Below, piece after piece: positions 4,771 through 23,240 of a DNA stretch of 23,611 bases. The stretch covers positions 1 through 23,611 of IMG/VR virus record IMGVR_UViG_3300032011_000135. One strand, given 5' to 3'. This stretch comes from a virus. Position 1 is the first letter of the stretch. The number at the start of each line of letters is the position of its first letter. The notes below the pieces were generated by a model that made no database searches, was not told the origin of the DNA, and saw nothing but the letters and a program-made list of their open reading frames with translations. Position numbers and translations under genes: made by a program.

Positions 4771-5508
4771 ATGGCATTTGCAAGAGGACCTAAAATAATA
4801 ACAGATGGTTTACAAATAGCTGTAGATCCATCATCAATAAAGTCCTACCCAGGATCAGGTACTTCGGTATTAGATTTAAGCGGTAATAGTTATAGTGGTA
4901 CTTTGAATAATGGAGCAACAGTAGCGTCAGGTTCGGCAACTGATAGTGATAAGTACATATATTTTGAACAAGATGATCATATGACATTTGCTAATGTAGC
5001 AGCTCTTCAGTATCAACCCTTACAGAGTTTTTCTTTAATGGCAGTTTTTAGCCTAACCAGTATAGCTCCGTACAATGAAGCTAATCAATATGATACGAAT
5101 AATACACTATTTGGAAAAGGCTCAACCTCAGGAGCAGTAGGATTAGGTCTAAGAAGACAAACTAATGGTAACTTAAGTATATATGCTGGTTCAAGAGGAA
5201 ATAGTCAACTAACTGAAACTTATAGTATATCAGCCGATACAATTTATTGTACTACATTGACATATGGACCAGAATTCCAACATCTATATGTAAATGGAGC
5301 ATTTATAAGTAGAACTGATACATCAGGAGGAGCAGAAGGTACTTTTGATAATACAGGTTGGAGATGCTTCTACCCAGGAGCAGTTCCTGGAGGTAACAGC
5401 GCAAACGCAGTAGGTAAACTCTTCTTAGCCCGTTTATACTCTAAAAAACTTTCTGAAGCAGAAGTACAACAAAATTTTAACTCAATTAAAAGTAGATTCA
5501 ATTTATAA
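4771..5508 (+). CDS. LamG/concanavalin-like lectin-domain protein 1 (short form)
   Basis: First of six related LamG-type proteins. It has an N-terminal tag ARGPKIITDGLQIAVDPSS (residues 4-22), then SYPGSGTSVLDLSGN, which is typical of phage LamG proteins. A jelly-roll domain follows (about 60-225), with QSFSLMAVFSL, HLYVNGAFISR and GKLFLARLYSKKLSEAEV as expected strand and turn signatures. It ends with QQNFNSIKSRFNL. This is the short architecture: tag plus one lectin domain, without the extra middle module of the long paralogues. It begins 12 bases after the previous stop in an A/T-rich leader without Shine-Dalgarno, and its stop overlaps the next start (TAATG). Sugar binding on the virion surface is inferred from the fold; no enzymatic residues are seen. 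Confidence 0.85.
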   Translation: MAFARGPKIITDGLQIAVDPSSIKSYPGSGTSVLDLSGNSYSGTLNNGATVASGSATDSDKYIYFEQDDHMTFANVAALQYQPLQSFSLMAVFSLTSIAPYNEANQYDTNNTLFGKGSTSGAVGLGLRRQTNGNLSIYAGSRGNSQLTETYSISADTIYCTTLTYGPEFQHLYVNGAFISRTDTSGGAEGTFDNTGWRCFYPGAVPGGNSANAVGKLFLARLYSKKLSEAEVQQNFNSIKSRFNL

Positions 5509-11029: not shown

Positions 11030-14000
11030 ATGGCAAACGAATTTAAGGTTAAAAAAGGCCTGATAGTAAACGGATCAGGTTCTACATTATTAGATATACA
11101 AGGTGCCCAAGGGCAGGTATTTTCTGTAACAGACTCTCTTTCCGGTTCTTTATTTGGAGTATCAGATATTTCAGGTGTTCCAATATTTGAAGTACTCTCT
11201 GACGAAACTATCATATTAGGAACAAGCGGAAGTGAAGCCATATTAATATCCGGTAGTACAGCTACTATAACAAGCGGGGTCTTATCAGGATCATTCTCAG
11301 GATCATTTGTTGGTGATGGATCTTCATTATCAGGATTAAGCTCAGGAGCAGTAACAGCTATCAATAATGCAACAGCAAACAGGCTAACTACAATAGCATC
11401 TACAACAACTCAATTAGATGCAGAAGCAAATTTAACATTTGACGGTACTAATATACTACACGTTAATCATACAAGCGGTCAGTTAAAATTAGGTGCAGAT
11501 GTCTCTTTATTCAGAGATGGTGCTAATATACTTAGAACTGATGATGCATTTCATGCTAATGCAAATATTCATGTTGGAGGTGATGGAAAAATATTTGATA
11601 GAGCAGGTACTAATTCATTTATACATTTTGATCATACTAATAGTAAGATAAAAATTCAAGAAGGCGGCGAAGAAATGGTAACTATAGATTCAGGAACAGT
11701 TACTATTAACCAAGCACAAGGTAATAATAAATTTAAAGTATTTGCATCAAGTTCAAGTGCACATTTCTTTGTATCATCTTCCGGTATGGTTGTTATTAAT
11801 AACGATACAACTGATTATTTTGGAGCATCTACAAGAGTACAAATAGCATCAGGTAATAGTAGTAAAGGTGTAGGTATTAGAACTAATATTTTTTACTTAT
11901 ATGGATACGGTAATGGTTCTACTACTCAAATGATATTCGGAGACGGTTCTGCAAACTGGGGATTATTTGCTAATGATGCTAATTTTAAATTATATGACTA
12001 TTCTATATCAGGGCCTGCATTAACAGTTGATGACGGAGGTAATTATTTCAAATTTTTAAGTGGTTCTTTAAATATTACAATAGGTAGAGATTTATCAGAA
12101 TCTACAGCTGAAGGTAGATTAAAAATGTACCTTAGAGGTAATAATGCTGTCTTAAGTACTTACCACTATAATAGTTCATTAGAACTTAGAGCGGGTATAT
12201 CAGGCTCAGGATATGCTGATAATTGGTCGAAGATAGTTTTACAAGATACACATAATGCTACTACCGGTGATATAGAATTCTGGACTAGTGGTTCACAGGC
12301 AGCACGAATTTCACATGAAGGTTATCTTGGAATTGGAGCAACAACACCTGGCGCTAAATTAGAAGTCGGCGGTGCTAATGCCGCTATTTGGATAAACCCA
12401 GCTGACGGTGCTCATGCAGGTCTGCATTTTAGACAAGCTGATGCTTTTAAAGGTTTTGTTGGATATAACGATAGTGCTGATGTAGTTAATCTAAGTATGG
12501 ACGGAAGTATTGTTAATGGTATTAACGTAAATTCTAGTCATAATGTAGGAATAGGAACAACTGTGCCTAAATCAGGTGATAAGTTATTTGTCAAAGGAGG
12601 AGATTTAAGAGTAGAAGGTACATCAGCTACTTCTGATTTAATTTTAGATCACAACGGACAATATAGTGGTAGTAGAATAAGAGGTATAAGAGACGAAGGC
12701 AATGATGGTCAAGATTTCGGTAGTAGTATGTTACAGTTCTTAACTAATGATAATAGTACTACATCTGCTACAGTAGCAATGACTATAAATTCTGAAGGTA
12801 AAGTTGGAATAGGTTCAACAGATCCTGCAGAATTATTAGATGTAGCTGGAACTGCAAGAGCAGCAACAGGTATAATAGAAGGGCATTTATATGCTGGAGA
12901 CAGTCTTCAACATTGGGGTGATGGTGGAACTGGATTATTCTTTCCTGCTAACGATAGAATAGTTCTTCAAACTACATCAACAGAAAGACTTAGAATAGAT
13001 AGTTCTGGTATAGTAACAATAAACGATACAGGTCAACAAGGCTGGGCAGGAAATAAATTAAACGTAGGTGATACTGGAGATGCAGCTTCTGGTATTAACA
13101 TATTAACAAACGCAACAGGAAATGCTTATCTATTATTTTCTGATGTAGTAGATAATAGTGCTGCTGAATATGCGAATCAAATAAGATTTGCTCATGATGG
13201 AATGTTCTTATCAACAAATATTGGAGGAACTGAAATAATGAGGTTATCTGGTTCAGGTGCAGTTGGTATAGGAACAACAACACCAGCAACTGAGTTAGAT
13301 ATTTTTAAAGATGGAGGTAACGCTACATTAAGAGTTAGAGCTGATGGACAATCTACAATAATAATAGATTCAGATGCTGATAATACTGGAACAGCAGGAG
13401 CATACTTATCCTATAGAGACACTGGAGCTACTAAATGGACACTTTATAAAGAAACTAATAACGATTTTTACCTTTATAACGCTGCAGCAACTTCATATCC
13501 AATTCATGCAAAAGCTGGAGGAGATATAGTATTTATGGAAGATGGAGGTAATTTAGGTGTAGGACCAGGAACTCCAGCATCTAGATTAGACGTATCAGGA
13601 TCTATTAGAGTACACCAATCTGCAGCTTCAAAATATATAGAAGTATTTGGAGGAAATAGTGGAAACTTCATAGATAGTTACGCTAACAATTTATATATTA
13701 GATACGGCGGAGATACTAATAAGTCTATAATGTTAGACAGTTTAGGCAACTTAACATTCAGTTCTAGAGCAATATTTCCTTCTTCTGCTGGATCCACAGC
13801 AAGCCCTACTATAGCATTCCCTTCCCATTCCACAGCAAACCATGCTGGTATATACTATGACCAAAATAACCAGTACTTAAAATTCAGAGCAGCAGATGGA
13901 GATAGAGCCTGGATAGGTTCTGCCGGTATATTCTCTAACTCTAATGTATATTCAGGTACAACAGGGCAGTTTAGAAATTATGGAGGTGTATGGAAAGCAA

Positions 14001-17000
14001 CAACAGGTACTTCTGGTAACGGATTTAATTTCTCATCTGCAGATATACCTAATGCAGTTACTATTACAGGTACTGCAAGTAATATCTTAAAAATTACAGG
14101 TTCTGGTACCAGTACGGGTATACAGATAGAAAAAGCTAGTGGTAGTAGTGCATCAACTGCAATGCTTACACACTTACGTCAAGGTAATTCTACATTTTAT
14201 GTATCAGTTGACGAAAATCAAAATGGAGGTAAAGCCTTTGCAGTAGAGATTAGCGGAAGCACAAGATTATCAGTAAATGCATCTAGAACTTATCATTACA
14301 ATACTCTTAACTTAAGAAACCGTACTACCGGCAATAACCCACCAGAGATTCAATTCGATAGAGACGATTCTACTACTTCAAATGGAAATAATCTTGGTGC
14401 GATAGTAGCTAGAGGTAATGATCCTTCTGGATACGAAAATGGTGCACAAATAAAATTTAAAGCAGATGGTACTTGGGATTCAAACGATTATCCTAGTAGA
14501 ATAGAATTTGCTACTGATCAAGCAGGTACTATGACTAATATACTTGTATTAGATAGTAACCAATCATCTTCCTTTACAGGTAATGTAACAATAACAGGTA
14601 ATTTAGAAGTAACCGGAACTACTACAACAGTTAATTCTACTAATTTAGATTTATCAGATAATATCATAGGTTTAAATAGAGGTGCCTCATCTAATGCAAA
14701 TGATTCAGGTATTATAGTAGAAAGAGGCAGTACAGGTAATAATGCAGCATTAATTTGGGATGAAAGTGAAGATAGTTGGAAATTTGGAACTACAACTGCA
14801 ACACCAGATTCTACAGGAAATCTTTCTGTAGCAGCAGCACCATTTATATCAAATGGATTTTGGACTACTACTAGTGCAGTTTCTCACTGGGGAGGTTATA
14901 ATACAGTATACGGAACTCTAACATGGTCTTCAGGATTTGCATCTATATATTCAAGAGCAGATGCAAGATTGAGATTAGGTTCTCATAATACTCAAGGTGT
15001 TATGGTAATATCTTCTTCTAAAGTAGGTATTGGAACAGAAACACCTCATGGTAGTGATACAGCATTACACGTACATGGAGGAAATATACTTCAATCAGGT
15101 TCTACAGCTAATAATCTATATATTCAAGATGGATCTAATGTACGTGGTAGCAATCATTTATTTTTACAAGGTGATGCAAGTTATGTACAGGTAAAATCTC
15201 CCGGTAATGCTCTATATTTAGATGCAGGTGCTGGACAATACTTTAGAAATGGTTCAGGTACTCAATACGGTCATTTTAGAACTAACAATTACTTGTTTAA
15301 TACCGGTTCTGCAAGTACAGTAGGAGGAAGTGCATTTATGACATTAAATGTTGGAGCAACTACTAATAAACCTATTTCTATTGTAAATGATGGAACTGAT
15401 GGAATGTATATTAGAAGATATGATTCTTCTGGTAAATATCAAATACAGACAACATCAGGCGGTGGTAACTCAGGTATTTTATCTTTACAATCATATGGAG
15501 GTAAAGTCTCTATCGGAACAATAGATGCACCAGGACAAGGAAATTTAGAAGTAAGAGGCATAATTAAAACCTCAGGAAGTTCTAATGGTTTCTTTTTAGA
15601 AGGAGCTGCAGGGTCAGCAGGTGATGAAGCAAGAATTTACTTAGGTGTTAACAGTGCATATGCTGGTAATACATTAGGGTTTATGTCAGGAAGATCTGGT
15701 TCGGTTCATAATAACTATGAATTTAGAACCGGAGATAATGATACTAGTTCAGCAGTAAGATTATGGATCTCAGCTTCTGGAACGGTTGGTATAGGTACAC
15801 AAGTACCTGTAGAAAAGTTTACAGTAGCAGGAGGTAGTATTATAGCTACAGGTTCTGGTAATACAAGTATTATAGCACGTTCTTCAGGAGGATGGAGTGG
15901 ATTACAAACAGTCTCATCAGATGCAGAAAATGCTTACTTATTTTTCAAAGATGTATCAGGAGAAAGATCTAGAATATGGGCTAGTTCAAATAATGATTTA
16001 AGATTTGCAACAAACGGAGGCGGATCAACAGCTTTAATAATAGATAGTAATAAAGACGCGGAATTTTTTGGACAAACTTTTTCTTTTGGTACTTCTAATG
16101 CAACTACAACTACACTTAACCTGACAGCAACTAATACAGCTGGATCCCCTGCAAACGCAGTTCAAGTTATAATGACAGGTTATGAAGGAAGAGGTGTAGG
16201 ACATTTTTATTTAGATACATCTTATAATAATAATGAGTGGTTTAGCGGTATGAGATATAGCGGTGGTGCTGCTAATTTCCAAATAGGATATTCAGCCACC
16301 GGCCAAGCAGAGTATATTACTTCTTCTCTAGTGAATATACATAAATCAGGTGTAGTAACATTTTCTGGAAGTAATTCTGTTCACAATTCTGGTAGCGTAA
16401 TAATATCAAACGGACAAATAAGCATTTCAGGCGATGGAACAAATGCAACTACTTTAACAGAAAGTGGTAATGGTGATTTTACCATTGCTGCTGTAGATGA
16501 TTTAAGATTACAAGCAGGCGGAGAAGATATAGTACTAAAAGGAAGTAGTGGTACAGAATTTGGTAGATTATCTAATTCAAGTGGACATACTATATTAAGA
16601 AATACTTCTAACGATAAAAACATAACAATTAAGTTCAAAACAGGTGGTAGTGAATATAACGGATTAATAATTTCTGCTTCCCAAAACGGTACTGCTTACT
16701 TTAATAGAAATGTACATGCAGGCTCAGGTTATAGTATGTTTGCAGCAGCATTTTATGATTCTTCAAATTCTTCTTACCTATTAGATCCAGCAAATACTGG
16801 AACGTCTTTAGCTGTAGCAGGTAAAGCCGGGTTAGGAGGAGTAACTAGTCCAAGTAAAACACTACATGTTGGAGGAGTAGGAGGTTCTGGAGGAGGAATA
16901 ATGATATCACCATCTTCAGGTGATGCTGAAATACAATTTCAAGACTCAGGAGTTACAAATGCATATATAACTCTAGAAGATGGAACTCAAGAATTAAGAT

Positions 17001-19705
17001 TCAGAGATGATACTGCTAATGTGTTAAACATTAATTTCAGTACTGAAAGAGTAGGAGTAGGTATTACAGCACCATCAGCAAAATTACATGTATCCGGTAC
17101 AAATGATGTAGCTTTAATAGAAGGATCAGGTAGTACAATACTATCAGTAGAAGGATCACAAGGTCAATTATTCTCTGTAACAGATTCTCTATCTGGATCT
17201 TTATTTGCTGTTAGTGATATCTCAGGTATCCCTATCTTAGAGGTAGAATCTAATGATGCTGTTACAATGGGTACCTTTGGAGCTAACACACTTGTAGTTA
17301 CAGGTTCTAGAATAGGTATAGGAACAGCAGATCCTTCTTACCCTGTTCATATATACGGTAATGGAAGTGCTAGATTTATGGTAAGTTCTGATGTAGCTGT
17401 ATTAGGATCAACTAATTTTGCAATACCAGCAGGTAGAAAGTTATTATTAGATGGTATTGGTGGTCATACATATATAGAAGAAGAATCAGATAGTAATCTT
17501 AAAATTTATGTCGCTGGAAGTGAAAGATTAAATATAACAAATACCGTAGCACAATTTGCAGGAGAAGTAGAAGCTTCAACTCTAGACATAAACGGAGTTA
17601 GTGCTCTTGATGGTAAAGTAACAATTACAGATGACGATGCTGGTGCGTTAACTGTAAGAAGAGCGTCTAATACAGATCAAGCCTTATATTTAAGAGGTGG
17701 CGCTGGTTCAGGTGAGGGTAGAGTTGCGGCTCAATACTCTTTAGACTTAGTATCAGGTTTAGGTGGTAGTAATAATTATGATTTAAAACTTGTTACAAAC
17801 GCTGGTACAGCTTTACAAATAGATGCTAGTAATAGTAATACATCTATATTTTCAGGACCTTTAGATGTAAACAGTAACGCTGATATATCAGGACAACTTA
17901 CAGTACATAATACATCAAGCATTTCAGCACAACATGTTGCAATAGGATCAGCAGGAGCTGCTAATTACTTATACTTACAAGGATTAGGAGATACAGATAA
18001 AGTTTATTTAGGCACACACCACAATGGTATGTTAGATATTCATGCTCAAGATGCAACTAATTTCATGTCTGCTTCTGTTACTATGATGACAGTTAGTAGT
18101 AGTGGTAAAGTTGGTATAGGAACAACCACACCAACTGTAAATCTTGAAGTTGTAGGAACAGGTGCTCCAGATATTAGAGTTAGAGATGCAGATGGTACAA
18201 ATCACTACGGTGATAGAGGCCATAATGGTGGTAATACTACTTATGTTTCAAGAAAAGGTACTGCATACGGTTCACATACGTTCTATAGATCAAATGGTAC
18301 TTCAACAACTGCAGTTTTAACTTTAGATACAAGTGGACACGTATCATCTTCAGGTAATTTTAAGTTGGCAGACAATAAAGCGATATCATTTGGTAATGAT
18401 GATGATTTAAATATATATCACGACACCACCAACGGCCTAATAACAAACGAACTTGGACAACTTATTATTCAAAATAATCAAAGTGATGGTGATATTATTT
18501 TCAATGGTAAAGATGGTAGTTCTGCTATAACTGCTCTAACATTAGATATGTCAGATGGTGGTACAGCGGAATTTGGCAGTAGAGTATATTTCCCAGAATA
18601 TCTTGCTCACAGTGGAGATCCTGATACACTTTTTGGATTTAGCGGTAATGATACATTTATTATTAACACTGCTGGTACAACCGCTCTTACAATAGATTCT
18701 TCTCAAGATGCAACTTTTGCAGGTAATATAAGTGTTGGCGGTACTATAATTAATATGGATACTATATATCTTCAAGATACAGCAGGTGGAAGATTAGGTT
18801 TCAATAGAAACACATCTAATGGTGCAATTCACAATAGTGGTTACAACGCTTTTCAATTACAAGTAAACACATCCGGCGCTTCTGGTTGCTTAGAAGTACA
18901 GGCCTACAATGGGGCTGGTACCTACGGTGGTAGTTTCCTTGTTGACGGATCTGCTCGACCAATTATTAACGATCGTATACTACATAATGGAGATACTCAT
19001 TCTTATTTTGGATTCCCTGGCGGTGATACATTTAATATTGTTTTAGGAGGATCAGAAAGATTACGCGTTGATTCTTCAGGTAATGTCGGTATCGGAACAA
19101 CTGCACCTGCAGTTACAACAGGAATTACTCCAAGACTAGACATTGTAGGTGGAATAACTCATACAGCTATTAGAAGAAAACCTATTGCATGGTCAGCATC
19201 ACCTGCAGCAGGAGAATCAGGGTATTATGCATTATTAGCAAAATTTGATATAGACGATGCAAATAATACAGATTTATGTGCCGTGTATACGATATCTGCA
19301 GAAGAAACCTCAGGCGTTGGATGTTATGCACGTATAATGATTAAACTACGTAAAGGCACATCTTCAAGTACCTTACAAGTAGCATCTTTAACTATACTTG
19401 ATATTGATGGAAATGTATCCGATTTTGGAGCAAGTGATGCTACTTCTAATGCTGAAATGTTAGAAGAAGACAGTTTTATTTTAAAAGTAATATCTGCATC
19501 TGATGTAAGGTTATATATTAAAAAGAAAACTACTTACGGAATAGTTCATCTATTTGAAGATTCATTATCATATGAAAATAATCTTGACTCTACTGATACT
19601 ACGCAAATAACTTATTACGAAGATGCTGATTGGAGCGCTAGCTTACCTATGACAGCTGGTAATACTATAAGTTCTTATATGGCTGCTACTAGAGCTATGC
19701 ATTAA
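11030..19705 (+). CDS. Giant tail fibre protein (2891 aa)
   Basis: Very long fibre, far longer than the T4 proximal long-tail-fibre subunit (about 1,290 aa). The N-terminus MANEFKVKKGLIVNGSGST is a recognisable start of marine phage fibres. It is followed by FSVTDSLSGSLFGVSDISG (31-49) and SGSFSGSFVGDGSSLSGL (86-103). The body has about 13 shaft motifs of the form (V/I)GIGTTxP...L.V.G, spread from about residue 435 to 2700. Residues 1184-1268 match a module of the 892-residue fibre, and residues 2032-2082 repeat the N-terminal module 15-65, pointing to fusion of fibre units. The C-terminal domain (about 2706-2891, ITHTAIRRKPIAWSASP to ATRAMH) includes CYARIMIKLRKG and VRLYIKKKTTYG and may bind receptor. 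AAGGA lies upstream. The frame continues open after the TAA stop into 20083. Trimeric receptor-binding fibre is inferred. Confidence 0.88.
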   Translation: MANEFKVKKGLIVNGSGSTLLDIQGAQGQVFSVTDSLSGSLFGVSDISGVPIFEVLSDETIILGTSGSEAILISGSTATITSGVLSGSFSGSFVGDGSSLSGLSSGAVTAINNATANRLTTIASTTTQLDAEANLTFDGTNILHVNHTSGQLKLGADVSLFRDGANILRTDDAFHANANIHVGGDGKIFDRAGTNSFIHFDHTNSKIKIQEGGEEMVTIDSGTVTINQAQGNNKFKVFASSSSAHFFVSSSGMVVINNDTTDYFGASTRVQIASGNSSKGVGIRTNIFYLYGYGNGSTTQMIFGDGSANWGLFANDANFKLYDYSISGPALTVDDGGNYFKFLSGSLNITIGRDLSESTAEGRLKMYLRGNNAVLSTYHYNSSLELRAGISGSGYADNWSKIVLQDTHNATTGDIEFWTSGSQAARISHEGYLGIGATTPGAKLEVGGANAAIWINPADGAHAGLHFRQADAFKGFVGYNDSADVVNLSMDGSIVNGINVNSSHNVGIGTTVPKSGDKLFVKGGDLRVEGTSATSDLILDHNGQYSGSRIRGIRDEGNDGQDFGSSMLQFLTNDNSTTSATVAMTINSEGKVGIGSTDPAELLDVAGTARAATGIIEGHLYAGDSLQHWGDGGTGLFFPANDRIVLQTTSTERLRIDSSGIVTINDTGQQGWAGNKLNVGDTGDAASGINILTNATGNAYLLFSDVVDNSAAEYANQIRFAHDGMFLSTNIGGTEIMRLSGSGAVGIGTTTPATELDIFKDGGNATLRVRADGQSTIIIDSDADNTGTAGAYLSYRDTGATKWTLYKETNNDFYLYNAAATSYPIHAKAGGDIVFMEDGGNLGVGPGTPASRLDVSGSIRVHQSAASKYIEVFGGNSGNFIDSYANNLYIRYGGDTNKSIMLDSLGNLTFSSRAIFPSSAGSTASPTIAFPSHSTANHAGIYYDQNNQYLKFRAADGDRAWIGSAGIFSNSNVYSGTTGQFRNYGGVWKATTGTSGNGFNFSSADIPNAVTITGTASNILKITGSGTSTGIQIEKASGSSASTAMLTHLRQGNSTFYVSVDENQNGGKAFAVEISGSTRLSVNASRTYHYNTLNLRNRTTGNNPPEIQFDRDDSTTSNGNNLGAIVARGNDPSGYENGAQIKFKADGTWDSNDYPSRIEFATDQAGTMTNILVLDSNQSSSFTGNVTITGNLEVTGTTTTVNSTNLDLSDNIIGLNRGASSNANDSGIIVERGSTGNNAALIWDESEDSWKFGTTTATPDSTGNLSVAAAPFISNGFWTTTSAVSHWGGYNTVYGTLTWSSGFASIYSRADARLRLGSHNTQGVMVISSSKVGIGTETPHGSDTALHVHGGNILQSGSTANNLYIQDGSNVRGSNHLFLQGDASYVQVKSPGNALYLDAGAGQYFRNGSGTQYGHFRTNNYLFNTGSASTVGGSAFMTLNVGATTNKPISIVNDGTDGMYIRRYDSSGKYQIQTTSGGGNSGILSLQSYGGKVSIGTIDAPGQGNLEVRGIIKTSGSSNGFFLEGAAGSAGDEARIYLGVNSAYAGNTLGFMSGRSGSVHNNYEFRTGDNDTSSAVRLWISASGTVGIGTQVPVEKFTVAGGSIIATGSGNTSIIARSSGGWSGLQTVSSDAENAYLFFKDVSGERSRIWASSNNDLRFATNGGGSTALIIDSNKDAEFFGQTFSFGTSNATTTTLNLTATNTAGSPANAVQVIMTGYEGRGVGHFYLDTSYNNNEWFSGMRYSGGAANFQIGYSATGQAEYITSSLVNIHKSGVVTFSGSNSVHNSGSVIISNGQISISGDGTNATTLTESGNGDFTIAAVDDLRLQAGGEDIVLKGSSGTEFGRLSNSSGHTILRNTSNDKNITIKFKTGGSEYNGLIISASQNGTAYFNRNVHAGSGYSMFAAAFYDSSNSSYLLDPANTGTSLAVAGKAGLGGVTSPSKTLHVGGVGGSGGGIMISPSSGDAEIQFQDSGVTNAYITLEDGTQELRFRDDTANVLNINFSTERVGVGITAPSAKLHVSGTNDVALIEGSGSTILSVEGSQGQLFSVTDSLSGSLFAVSDISGIPILEVESNDAVTMGTFGANTLVVTGSRIGIGTADPSYPVHIYGNGSARFMVSSDVAVLGSTNFAIPAGRKLLLDGIGGHTYIEEESDSNLKIYVAGSERLNITNTVAQFAGEVEASTLDINGVSALDGKVTITDDDAGALTVRRASNTDQALYLRGGAGSGEGRVAAQYSLDLVSGLGGSNNYDLKLVTNAGTALQIDASNSNTSIFSGPLDVNSNADISGQLTVHNTSSISAQHVAIGSAGAANYLYLQGLGDTDKVYLGTHHNGMLDIHAQDATNFMSASVTMMTVSSSGKVGIGTTTPTVNLEVVGTGAPDIRVRDADGTNHYGDRGHNGGNTTYVSRKGTAYGSHTFYRSNGTSTTAVLTLDTSGHVSSSGNFKLADNKAISFGNDDDLNIYHDTTNGLITNELGQLIIQNNQSDGDIIFNGKDGSSAITALTLDMSDGGTAEFGSRVYFPEYLAHSGDPDTLFGFSGNDTFIINTAGTTALTIDSSQDATFAGNISVGGTIINMDTIYLQDTAGGRLGFNRNTSNGAIHNSGYNAFQLQVNTSGASGCLEVQAYNGAGTYGGSFLVDGSARPIINDRILHNGDTHSYFGFPGGDTFNIVLGGSERLRVDSSGNVGIGTTAPAVTTGITPRLDIVGGITHTAIRRKPIAWSASPAAGESGYYALLAKFDIDDANNTDLCAVYTISAEETSGVGCYARIMIKLRKGTSSSTLQVASLTILDIDGNVSDFGASDATSNAEMLEEDSFILKVISASDVRLYIKKKTTYGIVHLFEDSLSYENNLDSTDTTQITYYEDADWSASLPMTAGNTISSYMAATRAMH
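11072..11224 (+). repeat. Fibre N-terminal module, copy 1 (partner at 17123-17275)
   Basis: Encodes residues 15-65 of the giant fibre. It aligns without gaps to residues 2032-2082 of the same protein, with about 35 of 51 residues identical by hand count. The exact shared core is FSVTDSLSGSLF followed by VSDISG. At the DNA level the copies have diverged at many third positions. Confidence 0.85.
14579..14833 (+). repeat. Fibre module, copy B (partner at 2455-2709)
   Basis: Encodes residues 1184-1268 of the giant fibre and is homologous to residues 126-210 of the 892-residue fibre. Here the module sits in mid-protein, whereas in the smaller fibre it is near the N-terminus. This is consistent with module exchange, or with a junction between former fibre units. 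Confidence 0.85.
17123..17275 (+). repeat. Fibre N-terminal-type module inside the giant fibre, copy 2
   Basis: Internal copy of the 51-residue module found at the N-terminus of the same protein. The remaining protein from this point to the stop is 860 residues, close to the 892 residues of the sibling fibre at 2080-4758. That suggests an entire fibre unit fused to the end of another. Confidence 0.83.
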
Positions 19706-19825
19706 TTTGCATTCTTTACTAACACTACTTCTACAAGGTATTTATCTTTATATAGTGGATTTTTAACTGGTAATGTAAGTTATAACCAAAGATATGTAAT
19801 ACCTAAACCAGGTAAACTAGTAGGA

Positions 19826-20083
19826 ATGTCCATCCAGGCTAATGCTTCTAGATCTAATAATACATTAAGAATATATGACGCAGATAATCCAACTAGTTAT
19901 TCTCAAATGACAAGCACCTCTTTTAGCGTTACAGCAAATAGAAATACTTGGGTGCCTTTAAACTTAGGTTTAAATATGAACGGTAGTGCATTAGGAGACG
20001 ATAATGCAATAGTATTCGGTATAAACTGTTCTTCATCTACAACAACTAACTGGAATGCAGTAGCAGTATTCCAATTTAATTAA
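19826..20083 (+). CDS. Detached C-terminal fibre domain (85 aa from first ATG; frame open from 19706)
   Basis: Reading from the first ATG gives 85 residues, but the same frame is open for 40 further codons up to the TAA that ends the giant fibre, and it is the giant fibre's own frame. The 40 upstream codons (including STRYLSLYSGFLTG and YNQRYVIPKPGKLVG) look like genuine protein. With the ATG part they resemble the beginning of a compact phage fibre C-terminal beta-domain in which YxQRxxxPxxGxLVGM precedes the core. The remainder (LRIYDADNP, NRNTWVPLNLGLNMNG, AVAVFQFN) continues it. No ATG, GTG or TTG occurs in the 40 codons, and there is no Shine-Dalgarno sequence before 19826. It may be a real short gene, a piece cut off by a nonsense mutation, or a readthrough extension. 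The sequence is credible as coding; its expression is uncertain. Confidence 0.55.
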   Translation: MSIQANASRSNNTLRIYDADNPTSYSQMTSTSFSVTANRNTWVPLNLGLNMNGSALGDDNAIVFGINCSSSTTTNWNAVAVFQFN

Positions 20084-20093
20084 ACTAAATAAA

Positions 20094-20588
20094 ATGGCAA
20101 CAATAGATAGTACATTTGGAAAAAAAGAATTAACAAAAGCAGCATCTACTTCAGAATTATCTGATATGGCTTCTAAAGGAGAAAAAGCACAACTTAGTAA
20201 TGGAGCATTAGTAATGGATTCTACTACAAAATCCGCTATTGATGCAGCAACAGATCCTTCTATATTAATAAATGATGAAGCAGAGTTTCTAAGATCTAAA
20301 TTCTATTTTAAACAAATAGAAGATTTGAGAGCTGAAATAGCTAAATTACATGCTTACGTAAAAGCTGCATTTGGAACAGATTCATCAGCAGCATCTTCAA
20401 AAGGGGCAAAAGGTGATACTGGTAATACAGGTCCACAAGGACCTACTGGACCTCAAGGAGCTACTGGAGCAACAGGAGCTACAGGACCTGCTGGTAGTAA
20501 TGCTTCAGTTAGTGGTTTTGAAGGAAGCAAAACAGTTGGTAAAGAAACATGGACATTTGAAGACGGTTTATTAAAAACAGTAAAATAA
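20094..20588 (+). CDS. Collagen-like repeat virion protein (164 aa)
   Basis: Residues 1-100 are unrecognised apart from a short amphipathic, coiled-coil-like helix (about 67-93, FYFKQIEDLRAEIAKLHAYVK) that could nucleate a trimer. Residues 104-136 are 11 perfect G-X-Y triplets (GAK GDT GNT GPQ GPT GPQ GAT GAT GAT GPA GSN), a collagen-like segment of the sort common in phage fibres. The C-terminal 28 residues (FEGSKTVGKETWTFEDGLLKTVK) look like a small cap; a closing W-T-F-x-(D/N)-G-L pattern is usual after such segments. It starts 10 bases after the previous stop with an A-rich leader. Probably a short trimeric fibre or fibre accessory protein; no specific attachment site can be named. Confidence 0.82.
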   Translation: MATIDSTFGKKELTKAASTSELSDMASKGEKAQLSNGALVMDSTTKSAIDAATDPSILINDEAEFLRSKFYFKQIEDLRAEIAKLHAYVKAAFGTDSSAASSKGAKGDTGNTGPQGPTGPQGATGATGATGPAGSNASVSGFEGSKTVGKETWTFEDGLLKTVK

Positions 20589-21488: not shown

Positions 21489-23240
21489 ATGGCAGAACAA
21501 ATTATTTCCCCAGGTGTTTTTACAAGAGAAAATGATATTTCTTTTATAACGCCAGCACCAGTAGATGCGAGCTCAGCATTTATAGGACCAACAGTAAAAG
21601 GACCAGTAGAACAACCTACTGTAGTTACTTCATATAACGAATATAAAGCTATATACGGAGAGACTTTTTCTTCAGCTTCAGTTAATAGAGAATTCCTTAC
21701 TTCTATCGCAGTTAAAAACTTCTTCCAACAAGGAGGAAATTCAGCTTTAGTTACAAGAGTTGTATCTGCTTCTCAACACTGGACTCAAGCACAAAGTGCA
21801 GCAGTAACATCATCGTTAATTGCAGGTGTTCCATTTACGTTGAAAACACACGGAAAAGGTGTAATATATAATAACGGTACATCCGCAACAGATCATGGAA
21901 CTGAAATAGCAGGATCAGGAGGAGCATTAGTATCTGGTTCTAAAGATAATATTAGATGGGAAGTAACAAATAAAGATAATAATAATGGAACATTTACCTT
22001 ATCTATTAGAAGAGGAAATGACAACCATAGTAATAAAGTAATATTAGAGCAATATACAAATGTAAATTTAGATCCTAACTCAGATAACTATATAGAAAAA
22101 GTAATAGGTAATCAAACTACTACTGTAGCTACTGACGGTAATTTAAAATTTGTTAAAACTACAGGTAACTTTGTAAATAAATCTAACTACGTTTATGTAT
22201 CAGCAGTAGGAAAACCAACAATTGATTACTTAGCAGCAGATGGATTCACAGTTAATTCAGACGGTACTAATTCTTACTCAGCATCTTTACCAGCTGAAGA
22301 ATCAGGATCTTTCTATAATGGAGGAGGTAATATAGTTGTACCGTCTATGACATTTAATGATGCTATTTCTAATACCGATACACAAGGTTTAGAAGCAGCA
22401 GATTATTCTGATGCAATTACAATTTTGCAAAATAAAGACGAATACGTTATTAACGTAATGGCAGCACCAGGGTTAATATATGATCATTCATCTCACGGAA
22501 CTGTATTAGACTCATTAATATCAGCTGCAGAAACAAGAAGCGATTGTATTGCAATAATAGATTTAGTAGCTTATGGAAGCACAACTGCAAATGTAGTAGA
22601 TCAAGGTAAATTAGTAAATAGCTCTTATGCAGCAGCTTACTGGCCTTGGGTACAATTAAGCGGAGGAGCAGGTATTCAATGGGCACCAGCTTCTTGTGTA
22701 GTACCAGGAGTATATGCATTTAACGATAGCGCTGCAGCACCTTGGTTCGCACCAGCAGGATTAGTAAGAGGAGGTATCACTGGAGTTGTTCAAGCAGAAC
22801 AGAAATTAAGTAGAGTACAGAGAGATACAATATATGCTGGAAAAGTTAATCCAATAGCTACTTTCCCTGGACAAGGAATCGCAGTATTTGGACAAAAAAC
22901 ATTACAAACTAAAGCATCAGCATTAGATAGAGTAAACGTTAGAAGATTATTAATCGCGCTTAAGAAATTCTTAGGAGATCAAGCTAGTAATTTAGTTTTC
23001 GAACAAAATACAATTGCAACAAGAAATAGATTCTTAGCAAATGTAAATCCATACTTAGAATCAGTAGTACAAAGACAAGGTCTTTATGCATACAGAGTAG
23101 TAATGGATGACACAAATAACACAGCAGACGTTGTTGATAGAAATCAATTAGTAGGTCAAGTATTTATTCAACCAGCTAAAACAGCAGAATTTATAGTACT
23201 AGACTTTACAATTGAACCTACAGGAGCAACTTTTGCATAA
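21489..23240 (+). CDS. Contractile tail sheath protein (gp18-like)
   Basis: Sheath subunit that polymerises round the tail tube and contracts on infection. The N-terminus (EQIISPGVFTRENDISF, with IGPTVKGPVEQPTVVTSYNEY at about 32-52) is the classic phage tail sheath start. The middle (about 90-290) is a variable, protease-resistant-type insertion. The conserved C-terminal part runs from about residue 330 and includes YWPWVQL, WFAPAGLVRGGI, LSRVQRDTIYAGKVNPIATF, GIAVFGQKTL and RVNVRRLLIALKKF, ending in FIQPAKTAEFIVLDFTIEPTG. Its 583 residues are somewhat shorter than T4 gp18 (659), with the difference likely in the outer domain. Two promoter-like elements lie upstream, and the tail tube gene follows 41 bases after the stop, as in T4-like phages. 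No Shine-Dalgarno sequence precedes the ATG. Confidence 0.96.
   Translation: MAEQIISPGVFTRENDISFITPAPVDASSAFIGPTVKGPVEQPTVVTSYNEYKAIYGETFSSASVNREFLTSIAVKNFFQQGGNSALVTRVVSASQHWTQAQSAAVTSSLIAGVPFTLKTHGKGVIYNNGTSATDHGTEIAGSGGALVSGSKDNIRWEVTNKDNNNGTFTLSIRRGNDNHSNKVILEQYTNVNLDPNSDNYIEKVIGNQTTTVATDGNLKFVKTTGNFVNKSNYVYVSAVGKPTIDYLAADGFTVNSDGTNSYSASLPAEESGSFYNGGGNIVVPSMTFNDAISNTDTQGLEAADYSDAITILQNKDEYVINVMAAPGLIYDHSSHGTVLDSLISAAETRSDCIAIIDLVAYGSTTANVVDQGKLVNSSYAAAYWPWVQLSGGAGIQWAPASCVVPGVYAFNDSAAAPWFAPAGLVRGGITGVVQAEQKLSRVQRDTIYAGKVNPIATFPGQGIAVFGQKTLQTKASALDRVNVRRLLIALKKFLGDQASNLVFEQNTIATRNRFLANVNPYLESVVQRQGLYAYRVVMDDTNNTADVVDRNQLVGQVFIQPAKTAEFIVLDFTIEPTGATFA

Follow-up and report, generated by a model that had tools for sequence, protein, structure and literature searches.

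A private in-frame TAA near the 3' end of a giant tail-fibre gene in a marine phage contig is most probably a very recent nonsense allele or a consensus error

Results

A lone stop divides a giant fibre gene that is otherwise continuous

A TAA found in one metagenomic contig, and in none of its relatives, interrupts the 3' end of what is most probably a single fibre gene of 3017 codons. This private stop could have two origins, a nonsense allele that arose very recently or a wrong base in the contig consensus; we give the two together a probability of roughly 0.94 and judge one about as likely as the other. The whole stretch of DNA analysed here, which we call the window, is an IMG/VR record of 23,611 bases classed as a linear fragment.

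The giant tail-fibre ORF of the window, in its truncated form, extends over 8.7-kb of the plus strand (11030 to 19705) and encodes 2891 aa, ending at the TAA at 19703–19705. After this stop the same frame stays open for 125 sense codons, up to a TAA at 20081–20083. The first in-frame start past the stop is the ATG at 19826, the 41st codon after it, which opens a sub-ORF of 85 aa on the plus strand (19826–20083). An earlier description of the window made from its letters alone (the sequence-only reading) had reported the TAA, the same frame open to 20083 and the lack of any start before ATG 19826, and we found all of it as described. At the base composition of the window, 125 stop-free codons would occur by chance with a probability of about 3e-5, and the same-frame continuation after the stop of every other gene in the window is closed within 0 to 13 codons. 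The open frame past the TAA is more than chance.

All five relatives carry a glutamine codon at the position of the stop

We searched for relatives among 2.9 million viral contigs using the downstream peptide, the upstream end, alignments of the fused end and DNA patterns, leaving the window's own record out of the IMG/VR searches. Every type of search led to the same set of up to five other IMG/VR contigs. All five contigs encoding the region have CAA (Gln) at the position equivalent to 19703–19705, a single-base difference at 19703, and their fibre gene is uninterrupted. A DNA pattern fitting TAA and CAA alike matched only these five contigs in IMG/VR, all with CAA, and the 21-mer containing the TAA stop had no match there (own record excluded). 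The sequence-only reading had suggested checking whether the two parts are fused elsewhere, and they are fused in each of the five. This comparison set includes three diverged contigs, which differ from the window at 18–28% of bases (about 72–82% shared) and are fused too. The motif HQFAFF around the site, including the Gln, was invariant in the three distinct sequences aligned, and the stretch after the stop showed 76–85% amino-acid identity to the relatives. Regarding INPHARED phages and species-level genome contigs, no relative of the C-terminal part was found in either.

Two of the five contigs come from practically the same phage. IMGVR_UViG_3300032047_000127 (G002) differs from the window by 6 mismatches in 14,259 bases, with no gaps (99.96% over 14.3 kb), and IMGVR_UViG_3300032073_000241 (G001) by 3 mismatches in 10,226 bases, also with no gaps (99.97% over 10.2 kb). 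In both, CAA replaces the TAA at 19703–19705. The undivided gene of G002 starts at the same ATG and ends at window position 20083 (window 11030–20083, plus strand), encoding 3017 aa, while G001 begins at window position 13386 and thus holds only the 3' part of the fibre, open through to the same end.

Between 9353 and 23611, the six positions that differ between the window and G002 amount to four events. Two of these are synonymous changes of two bases each, at 18938/18940 (Leu) and at 22344–22345 (Ser). The others are an A/T difference at 13385, which exchanges Thr and Ser, and the change at 19703 (C in the relatives, T in the window) that creates the stop. Besides the stop, all of them are synonymous or conservative. 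In these genes a random change of one base gives a stop in about 4.8% of cases, so finding one among the 4–6 differences observed has a chance of 18–26% and is unremarkable. The 378 bases that follow the stop within the gene show 0 differences between the window and G001 or G002, so that a downstream frame that is 'not decayed' tells us only that the event is recent. A single-base difference with intact flanks, while all the relatives are uninterrupted, is the pattern of an intact gene family in which one contig has a nonsense allele or a wrong base. As a separate observation, the Thr/Ser difference at 13385 sits one base outside the start of G001, as if the assembly had broken at a strain variant. 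Besides, a 5-bp inverted repeat with a 6-base loop (19698–19713, ATGCA-TTAATT-TGCAT) surrounds the changed base at 19703, which falls in the loop; we speculate that such a repeat could favour local mutation or a base-call error.

The region after the stop is conserved and predicted to be rich in beta strands

According to the sequence comparisons, the start-less domain described by the sequence-only reading forms the final 125 residues of a single fibre (19706–20083, plus strand, with the natural stop) and is not a separate gene. Among the relatives, the part after the stop is under purifying selection (dN/dS about 0.16, 0.21 and 0.32), including the 40 codons that precede ATG 19826, which are conserved like the remainder (36/40 and 32/40 residues identical).

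We modelled the 125-aa part alone with AlphaFold2 and obtained eight strands with a moderate mean pLDDT of 60, while the 275-aa fused end gave a poor model (pLDDT 45). In this low-confidence model, roughly 65 residues with few strands surround the Gln and lie between two strand-rich parts. The last 125 residues are thus predicted, with low-to-moderate confidence, to be an all-beta module, and are probably beta-rich. Foldseek matches of the C-terminal part were weak and to mixed beta-sandwich proteins (best E 1.6e-4 among viral structures and 2.8e-3 in the PDB), so we name no fold family. Neither Pfam nor PHROGs had a family that matched this part significantly (best PHROGs E 0.024), and a sequence search against the PDB gave no matches. 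From its position at the end of the fibre, the module may be a receptor-binding tip.

Alternative explanations for the stop

The sequence-only reading had offered three explanations, a recent nonsense mutation, a sequencing or assembly error and stop-codon readthrough, of which the first two both fit our results. The one it favoured was readthrough, in which a minority of fibres would decode the TAA as an amino acid and gain an extra tip, displaying two tip variants. One could argue for it from the downstream frame, which is intact and constrained among the relatives, and from the possibility of low-level suppression of an ochre stop. However, readthrough requires a stop that is kept, and this one is not conserved, since every other contig found has the sense codon CAA, even the one 99.96% identical to the window; the claim is therefore unsupported. 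Moreover, genes of this phage usually end in TAA, and neither the window nor the relatives' contigs yielded a tRNA gene. For a readthrough-extended virion protein, we would expect a conserved stop followed by a conserved extension, and found CAA in 5/5. Nor did we find a fitting precedent for tail-fibre readthrough in the literature searched. We regard readthrough as very unlikely, and grant equally little to a related scenario in which the stop is real and maintained in the phage population at appreciable frequency, and low-level ochre suppression by the host would yield a mixture of truncated and full-length fibres with altered host recognition.

Neither is it at all likely that the downstream part is its own gene, translated from ATG 19826 or by translational re-initiation. 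This ATG is directly preceded by GGA, and this weak purine-rich stretch beside the start would be the only ribosome-binding cue, but the GGA abuts the ATG, too close for a usual Shine-Dalgarno site. The ATG corresponds to an internal Met in all the fused relatives (LVGMSIQAN), and conservation is just as high over the preceding 40 codons as further on, although these would lie outside the 85-aa ORF. Fusion in 5/5 relatives contradicts a separate gene; a stand-alone ORF with its own start was seen in none of the homologues.

The least credible of the alternatives, and extremely improbable in our view, is that the phage decodes TAA as glutamine, by analogy with TAG in other phages. The stop does fall exactly at a conserved Gln position, and in this it resembles the crAss-like phages with code 15, which read TAG as Gln and have stops in structural genes where relatives have glutamine (PMC9523058). 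Those phages, however, have recoded TAGs in many of their genes and predicted suppressor tRNAs (PMC9523058), whereas here a single contig has a single such TAA, and genes otherwise end in TAA. It is the sole TAA in a frame of 3017 codons, while the 2891-codon ORF contains 66 CAA codons, and TAA ends 13 of the 15 ORFs examined, the fibre included. Recurrence within genes, as in code 15, was not observed: there is one in-frame TAA and most genes end in TAA. The search for tRNA or suppressor tRNA genes, none of which were found, covered the window and the relatives' contigs, all of them genome fragments.

Consequences of a nonsense allele or a consensus error

The stop in the window is no device for a two-tip fibre; it is either a private mutation of an ordinary kind or a sequence error. 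If it is real, translation would end at residue 2891 and the last 125 residues, the predicted beta-rich C-terminal module, would be lost; such a truncated-fibre mutant would probably be impaired or have a changed host range. If confirmed, it would be a loss-of-tip allele that arose naturally in the fibre of a marine phage. If the stop is an error, the phage would make the ordinary fused fibre. Here a single metagenomic contig with one in-frame stop gave the appearance of a split or readthrough fibre, a reading that near-identical contigs dispel. Gene callers would wrongly assign to the window contig a truncated fibre and an orphan gene of 85 aa.

Genomic context of the fibre gene

The window comes from a marine, contractile-tailed phage and contains fibre genes, LamG-like structural proteins, a collagen-like protein, a tail sheath and a tail tube. 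The best annotated match of the tail sheath is that of Flavobacterium phage immuto, with 62% identity and a similar gene order. Flavobacterium phage vB_FspM_immuto_2-6A (Immutovirus, NC_055915) resembles the window in the order of the fibre and structural genes, sheath and tube. The first ~90 residues of the giant fibre are similar to the N-terminus of an immuto tail fibre protein (41% over 75 aa, E 3e-11), gp47, which is related to the N-terminal ~75 aa (41%) but differs in having 578 aa and no similarity to the C-terminal part of the window fibre. The next gene after the fibre encodes a short collagen-like protein (20094–20588, plus strand), and in L004 and L006 the same MATID-FGKK protein start comes within a few codons after the fused fibre.

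We also noted several repeated modules. Consecutive proteins encoded between 4771 and 10972 share a common start (GPKIITDGL / GPKVINDGL / RGSNIVRENL) and a common end (EVLQNFN-LK-RF), and the one at 4771–5508 matches Laminin_G_3 in Pfam; the series resembles a tandem array of related lectin-like structural proteins that duplicated and diverged. The two large fibre genes have in common the module FTGNVTITGNL-V-GTTTTVN-TNLD-SDNIIGLNRGASSNANDSGIIVERGSTG (2442–2650 and about 14566–14774, 82% DNA identity), pointing to a duplication or to recombination between these genes. Finally, the module GSGST(I/L)L-(V/I)-G-QGQ(L/V)FSVTDSLSGSLF-VSDISG(I/V)P occurs twice in the giant fibre, at 11030–11300 and about 17110–17310, and once in the gp47 fibre of the immuto phage, at its N-terminus.
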